Part shown: piece by piece, positions 27,239 through 30,483 of the stretch | Numbering within the stretch: the stretch's first letter is position 1 | How the letters are laid out: each line of letters begins with the position of its first letter | Origin: an uncultured delta proteobacterium | Lineage (GTDB): Bacteria; Myxococcota_A; Polyangia; Haliangiales; Haliangiaceae | NCBI GenBank assembly: GCA_900696455.1 | Contig: CAADGB010000507.1 | Coordinates: 1 to 33,591 of the forward strand | Reading direction: 5' to 3' | DNA: 33,591 bases | The notes under the pieces: generated by a model | Seen by the model: the letters and a program-made list of their open reading frames with translations, nothing else | What the model was told of the DNA's origin: nothing | Database searches by the model: none | Made by a program: the position numbers and the translations under genes

Positions 27239-29004
<1,766 letters not shown>

Positions 29005-29009
29005 CCCGG

Positions 29010-29237
29010 CTAGGCGCCGCGCGCCGCCGTCACCGCCGCCACCACCTCGGCCTCGGTCGGGAACTCACCGCCGGCCTTGTCGACGACCTTGCGACCGTCG
29101 AGCCAGACCGTGTACTCGCCGCGACCGCCGGGGACCAGCGTCGCCTCGACGCCGAAGGCTCGGCGCAACGCGGCCGCCGCACGGGCGGCCCGGGGCTCGT
29201 AGCTTCAAGCCACGCAGTAGCGGATCTCGAGCGTCAC
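29010..29237 (-). CDS. SelW/Rdx-family selenoprotein (in-frame UGA as selenocysteine)
   Basis: 75 residues when UGA at 29205-29207 is read as selenocysteine (U). The N-terminus reads VTLEIRYCVAU, then SYEPRAARAAAALRRAFG. This is the beta-alpha-beta start of the SelT/SelW/SelH (Rdx) thioredoxin-fold family with its CxxU redox motif (Cys8, Sec11) in the usual place. It continues through EATLVPGGRGEYTVWLDG and an FPTEAEVV helix to a TAG stop; nearly all other genes here stop with TGA. A perfect 7-bp hairpin with a five-base loop starts 15 bases after the UGA, fitting the bacterial SECIS pattern. TATGCT ends 6 bases before the GTG (leaderless). Rdx proteins are small redox proteins, probably acting on thiols. 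A decayed Cys gene is the alternative, but UGA at exactly the redox position plus the hairpin argue against it. No sel genes are in the window. Confidence 0.85.
29172..29190 (-). promoter_or_regulatory. Bacterial SECIS-like hairpin
   Basis: On the minus strand GGCCGCC pairs with GGCGGCC around the loop CGUGC. The loop begins 22 bases after the UGA and has G as its second base. The established bacterial SECIS description asks for a short stem-loop within the coding region, an apical loop roughly 16-37 bases past the UGA and a G in the first two loop positions; all are met. Confidence 0.65.
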
Positions 29238-29243
29238 CCCGCG

Positions 29244-29249
29244 AGCATA
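29244..29249 (-). promoter_or_regulatory. -10-like TATGCT, leaderless start candidate
   Basis: On the minus strand TATGCT ends 6 bases before the GTG of the selenoprotein gene, in the 25-base gap after the metallophosphoesterase stop. It suggests independent transcription of the small gene. Confidence 0.5.
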
Positions 29250-29262
29250 CCGCGTCCGGGGC

Positions 29263-30483
29263 TCAGGCGACAGGGTCGGGCTCGAGCTCGAACAGCTCGA
29301 CCGCGGCCGGATCCGGCGCGCGGTGGAGGGAGGGATCGATGAGGTAGAGCACGGCGTCGCCGGGTGCCGCCGGCGCCAGGCCCAGCTCGTAGCGCACGTC
29401 GTCGCCGCCGCGCGCGCGCAGCGTCCGGCGACCGGACAGGGTCTCGGGCATGGCCGGATCGCGCCAGCGCACCAGCTCGGCCACGCACTTGGGGTGCCCG
29501 GTGTGGCCGGCGACCTGGACCAGCCCGGCCGGCAGCGTGCGCGGGTGGTAGCGGCGCGGCCGCGTCATCTCGGTCTCCCAGCTCCGGTCGGCGCCGGGGC
29601 GGTCAGGGTCGGCCGGCCGGTGGTAGAGCATGCCGCCGCCCTCGGGCAGCGCCCCCAGCCCGTCGGCCGCGGTCGCGCCCGCCACGTGCAGCGGCGCCAG
29701 GGACAGCGGCGCGAGGTCGCCGGCGAGCCACCGCGGTCGCACCTCGTCGATCGCCATCGCCAGTCGGGCGTCGAGCGCGGCGGCCAGGATCGCCGGATCG
29801 CGTTCGTCGGGCAGCCCGAGCAGGGCCAGCTCGCGCCCGGTGATCGCGGCGTGGGTGAGCAGGAGCGGCGGGCCCCCGGCCGCCCGGGCGCTCGCGCCGA
29901 GCCGCAGGCGGCCGGCGAGGAGCTCGGCGACGACCAGCGCCCGCTGGGCGGCCGTGAACGCCGAGAAGTCGCGCTGGACCACGCCCAGCGCCGGCACCTC
30001 GGGGAACCGCGCCATGTACTCGGCGGCGACCCGCGCCGGGTGCTCGTCGGGCGCGTCGGCGCGGGCCGCCAGCAGCGCCTCGGCCACCGCGGTCGCCGCG
30101 GCGAAGCGCTCGTCGCTCACCCGCGCCAGCTCCATCACCCGCGCCACGTCGTGGTTGCCCACCAGGATCGTCACCTGCGCCGGCGGGTGCGCGCACAGCC
30201 AGCGCAGGAACGCCGGCCCGTCCACCCGCGCCGCGTCGATCGTCCCCTGCGCCCGGGTGCCGAAGTCGAAGTGATCGCCGATGCTCACGAGCTGCACGTC
30301 ATCGCGCAGCCGCCCGTCCTCCCCCAGCAGCCCCTGGTGCTCCAGCACCGCCAGCAGCTTCTCCAGCGCCGCCTGCGGATCGCCCATCGCCACCGCGCGC
30401 CGCGGCGTCACCGCCCGCGCCGCCAGCCGGTCGCCATCCCCCAGCTCCCGGGCCAGCCCCAGCGCACGCGCGACGCGCTCCAT
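29263..30483 (-). CDS. Metallophosphoesterase (calcineurin-like)
   Basis: 406 residues, cytoplasmic, no signal peptide. Metal-site motifs in order: GDPQ (Asp35; the usual GDxH has Gln here instead of His), GDHFDFG (Asp70, Asp73), GNHD (Asn110, His111), LTHAAITG and GHTGH near residue 330. The fold is the two-metal PPP/MPE phosphoesterase; substrates in the family range from nucleotides to phosphoproteins. The C-terminal about 60 residues form an added beta region. The ATG at 30483 is preceded by GAGAAT with a 6-base gap, again leaderless-like. The stop lies 25 bases upstream of the selenoprotein start on the same strand. The unusual Gln in the first motif may weaken one metal ligand. Confidence 0.87.
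   Translation of the reverse strand: MERVARALGLARELGDGDRLAARAVTPRRAVAMGDPQAALEKLLAVLEHQGLLGEDGRLRDDVQLVSIGDHFDFGTRAQGTIDAARVDGPAFLRWLCAHPPAQVTILVGNHDVARVMELARVSDERFAAATAVAEALLAARADAPDEHPARVAAEYMARFPEVPALGVVQRDFSAFTAAQRALVVAELLAGRLRLGASARAAGGPPLLLTHAAITGRELALLGLPDERDPAILAAALDARLAMAIDEVRPRWLAGDLAPLSLAPLHVAGATAADGLGALPEGGGMLYHRPADPDRPGADRSWETEMTRPRRYHPRTLPAGLVQVAGHTGHPKCVAELVRWRDPAMPETLSGRRTLRARGGDDVRYELGLAPAAPGDAVLYLIDPSLHRAPDPAAVELFELEPDPVA

Follow-up and report, generated by a model that had tools for sequence, protein, structure and literature searches.

Selenoproteins of the SelW-like family are well documented in bacteria. In the Sargasso Sea set they outnumbered every other selenoprotein family, with 48 genes that carry the CxxU motif and bacterial SECIS elements; a redox function was suspected, and a SelW-like protein was found to interact with glutathione (PMC1088965). 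In completed genomes, SelW-like proteins were listed among the selenoproteins of Deltaproteobacteria, Clostridia and Symbiobacterium, and selenocysteine (Sec) may be the original form of the family (PMC1794560). The kind of gene considered here is thus already known, SelW-like genes with bacterial SECIS elements having been described since 2005-2006 (PMC1088965, PMC1794560). A literature search of limited coverage found no study of the selenoproteome of Myxococcota.

The window, i.e., the whole 33,591-nucleotide stretch of DNA that was analysed, contains a candidate gene of this kind with the following features:

29010..29237, minus strand: selW-like (Rdx family) gene, predicted to encode a selenoprotein; supported by its translation, PF10262 and TIGR02174 matches over cut-off, and a frame kept in 70 distinct loci.
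29205..29207, minus strand: in-frame UGA at codon 11, the second redox position of Cys-Val-Ala-Sec (CxxU); supported by the translation and by the presence of TGA at this codon in 73 loci fetched from relatives.
29172..29190, minus strand: bacterial SECIS-like hairpin with a 7-bp stem, the five-base loop CGUGC and an invariant G at 29182; supported by its fold, pair counts, a synonymous-codon control and the contrast with Cys homologues.
29244..29249, minus strand: -10-like TATGCT ending 6 bases before the GTG; supported by enrichment of TANNNT at this distance in homologues, where it is nearly exclusive with Shine-Dalgarno-like motifs.

The original prediction had placed a 75-codon gene at 29010-29237, reading through a TGA at the second redox position to a TAG stop. 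The coordinates were correct, and the strand, which had not been given, is minus: translation from the GTG at 29237 to the TAG at 29010 yields 75 codons plus the stop, just as proposed, with a single in-frame TGA and the redox motif C8-V-A-U11 near the N-terminus. The product reads VTLEIRYCVAUSYEPRAARAAAALRRAFGVEATLVPGGRGEYTVWLDGRKVVDKAGGEFPTEAEVVAAVTAARGA. The plus-strand reading of the same interval was rejected, as it gives no sensible protein. The selW-like gene occupies a short gap: its plus-strand neighbour, an Hsp70-like gene, has its end at 29004, and on the minus strand a frame with no assigned family stops at 29263, leaving 25 bases to the GTG. In a relative of the same genus (L023), the sequence immediately upstream of selW is similar to the 3′ end of the window's Hsp70-like gene. 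There, selW appears to follow an Hsp70-like gene in the same direction, whereas in the window the two genes are convergent. At gathering thresholds, Rfam gave nothing in the window, and around the selW-like gene only chance-level matches were seen.

The assignment to the Rdx family, also part of the original prediction, was confirmed by profile searches of the product with U read as C. The match to Pfam Rdx (PF10262) was clear (47.2 bits, E 2.6e-12, cut-off 22.6), and TIGR02174 of NCBIfam also exceeded its cut-off (38.1 bits vs. 34.2). The top NCBIfam model was NF041051, the SelT/SelW/SelH family (seleno)protein of the Campylobacter type, with 61.7 bits and E 5.8e-17; this lies under the equivalog cut-off of 88 bits for SelTWH_Campy, so the product is not that equivalog. 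When the whole genome was searched in six frames with PF10262, the single locus obtained was 29010-29237, with one TGA inside.

The gene was then compared across 193 genomes, ranging from the same genus to the class. A SelW match was present in 77 of them, and in 71 of these 77 the copy was of the Sec form (TGA). The loci were fetched and re-read, giving 73 with TGA (70 distinct); all 73 have TGA exactly at the codon for U11 and Cys at residue 8, and their frames stay intact for about 70-90 codons before reaching a stop, the length typical of the family. Since the loci are related by descent, these counts are not independent. A Cys codon at the U11 site was found in eight usable loci, L101 and L103 having been excluded from this set for want of a usable homologous frame; these eight Cys homologues fall into a sub-group of their own, visibly distinct in its greater length and in a tail like KELKQ..RD. 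A contig scan with the product returned one relative only, a Myxococcales MAG (L051), whose locus is identical to that of G004 over the first 60 bases from the UGA.

A hairpin (GGCCGCC-CGUGC-GGCGGCC) begins 15 bases after the UGA and has G as the second base of its loop. The original prediction took it for a SECIS-like element, and its position, 7-bp stem, loop G and conservation all bore this out, but its single-sequence energy is not significant. In a 58-nt stretch of the window alone, the folding energy lay at the mean of dinucleotide shuffles (z -0.07); in DNA as GC-rich as this, the hairpin does not rise above chance in this respect. This is what would be expected if the hairpin were a by-product of GC-rich coding sequence, with the SECIS element lying elsewhere or absent. 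The comparison of the 70 distinct loci tells strongly against such an explanation. Numbering the U of UGA as 1, the pairs 19-35, 20-34, 21-33, 22-32, 23-31 and 24-30 were formed in 65, 70, 68, 63, 70 and 69 of the 70 loci, respectively, and the stem was kept through compensatory changes: pair 21-33 occurs as C-G (37 loci), U-A (10), G-C (10) and U-G (8), pair 22-32 as G-C (46), A-U (14) and U-A (2), and pair 24-30 as C-G (50) and G-C (19). Close loci of the same genus show little variation in the stem.

The loop and the codon usage point in the same direction. At position 26, in the loop, all 70 loci have G; the base after it, a third codon position, is U in 48 of them, where codon usage in the rest of these genes would give 6.5. 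Whenever the codon in question encodes Ser, it is AGU, whereas elsewhere Ser is encoded by UCN in the majority of cases and AGU is rare. In the synonymous-codon control, 68 of the 70 loci folded better than their own synonymous mean (mean z -1.47), and when the hairpin of the window was recoded without altering its amino acids, just 1 synonymous version in 300 folded equally well. Finally, of the 7 stem pairs, an average of 3.4 are formed in the Cys homologues vs. 6.4 in the Sec forms, a contrast that constitutes an unmatched control, as the protein sub-groups differ. We therefore regard a mere by-product of GC content as very improbable. The case for a SECIS element is carried by comparison across genomes and not by the energy of the single hairpin.

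The genes selA, selB, selC and selD, whose presence elsewhere in the genome bears directly on the decoding of the UGA, were sought in the assembly (8.0 Mb, 554 contigs, 95% complete), and all four were present. The selA gene on contig C14 scored 527 bits, over its cut-off, with the first ~60 positions unseen because the gene lies at the contig end. On contig C429, selB (292.8 bits) encodes a full-length protein of 633 residues with an EF-Tu-like domain, the SelB beta-barrel and two SelB winged-helix domains. The tRNA-Sec gene on contig C497 scored 70.7 bits (gathering score 47), and its anticodon according to ARAGORN is tca (UCA). The selD gene on contig C532 carries its own in-frame UGA (TGA), located in the active-site motif GGGUAAK and followed by a strong hairpin. 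The selD of this genome is a selenoprotein gene itself (L019:1474-1531). With two UGA-containing genes and the full machinery in one genome, Sec decoding is the straightforward reading.

The distribution of selA among the relatives is in line with this: it was detected in 65 of the 71 genomes with a Sec-form SelW vs. 39 of the 122 without one, the p-value of this co-occurrence being a guide only, as the genomes are related. As for the six Sec-form genomes in which selA was not detected, selB exceeds its cut-off in five, and the remaining one is an assembly of 1770 contigs, so that assembly or search gaps are the probable explanation. Conversely, 39 genomes (G009, G011, G013, G016, G017 and others) have selA and no detected Sec-form SelW; these would be cases of gene loss, divergence or assembly gaps.

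Taken together, the family match, the complete machinery, the conserved UGA and the covarying hairpin support the selenocysteine reading of the UGA put forward in the original prediction. The conservation of the frame, taken by itself, would allow the UGA to be read through independently of SelB as another residue, e.g., Trp or Cys, whether by near-cognate decoding or by reassignment of the codon. Such decoding is difficult to reconcile with the SECIS-like hairpin and its invariant loop G, with the co-occurrence of Sec-form SelW and selA, with the tRNA-Sec gene in the genome, and with the use of TGA as the ordinary stop in many of the same Sec-form SelW genes; we consider it extremely improbable. 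A decaying Cys-type Rdx gene, in which TGC had become TGA through a nonsense mutation or a sequencing error, has in its favour solely that TGA is a stop in the standard reading and can be dismissed, with the UGA conserved at the same codon across families of the class in 70 distinct loci, intact frames running to the stop, the Sec machinery in the genome and the covarying hairpin; the relatives, where the original prediction had proposed to look for stops and frameshifts, showed an intact frame and no decay.

We conclude, with near certainty, that this is a functional SelW-like selenoprotein gene, with Sec predicted at residue 11. SelB carrying Sec-tRNA would bind the hairpin just downstream of the UGA, thereby directing selenocysteine to residue 11. 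The product would be a small protein, presumably of the thioredoxin fold, whose CxxU redox pair may serve a redox (thiol/selenol) function.

The start region deserves separate consideration. The -10-like TATGCT ending 6 bases before the GTG, already part of the original prediction, was located at 29249-29244, and no Shine-Dalgarno sequence was seen before the GTG. For the 70 loci, start codons were assigned from their location with respect to the UGA. A TANNNT box stops precisely six bases short of the start codon in 19 loci and 5 to 9 bases short of it in 35, as compared with 0 to 2 loci at other distances. A Shine-Dalgarno-like motif was present in 5 of the 35 loci with the TANNNT box vs. 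26 of the remaining 35. In addition, a -10-like TACGCT precedes the ATG of selD in the same genome by seven bases. The distance of the box from the start, its near-exclusion with Shine-Dalgarno motifs and the selD box together make a leaderless mRNA likely, and the position of the -10 box suggests that transcription from it would yield a leaderless selW-like transcript. Three other long frames of the window, at 1975 (+), 18331 (+) and 6853 (-), likewise show TANNNT ending at a distance of exactly six bases from the ATG/GTG. The use of leaderless starts may be general in this genome.

These observations lead to a broader proposal, which we hold to be somewhat better than evenly balanced: the selW-like mRNA would start at or next to the start codon, with no Shine-Dalgarno sequence, the UGA being recoded at codon 11 and the SECIS element beginning about 48 bases from the 5′ end; with the same arrangement in about half of the homologues and in selD, the class would routinely couple leaderless initiation with Sec recoding. 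A literature search of limited coverage found no bacterial study joining leaderless mRNA with selenoproteins. The leaderless-looking starts, the less usual part of the system, link leaderless initiation to recoding in a way that can be tested, and together with the conserved SECIS set they are the parts worth keeping. The hairpins of the 70 distinct loci are useful covariation data for bacterial SECIS elements. Moreover, Sec-form SelW is widespread in this bacterial class (71 of the 193 genomes searched), and gene callers that treat UGA as a stop would tend to miss such genes.

As for related proteins, those with solved structures include the Cys-type Rdx proteins 3dex, 2fa8 and 2ojl and the human C17orf37 (2ljk). 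They belong to the same family by sequence, but the similarity is weak (best E 6e-5), and they have CxxC and no Sec, in contrast to the CxxU of the present protein. The Campylobacter type (NF041051) gives the best NCBIfam score, yet one below the cut-off of the model. The closest likeness is to the bacterial SelW-like selenoproteins (PMC1088965, PMC1794560), which share with the present gene a small Rdx product, the CxxU motif, the in-frame UGA and a downstream bacterial SECIS element with G in a small apical loop. The present gene differs from them in its myxobacterium-like lineage and in its probably leaderless start.
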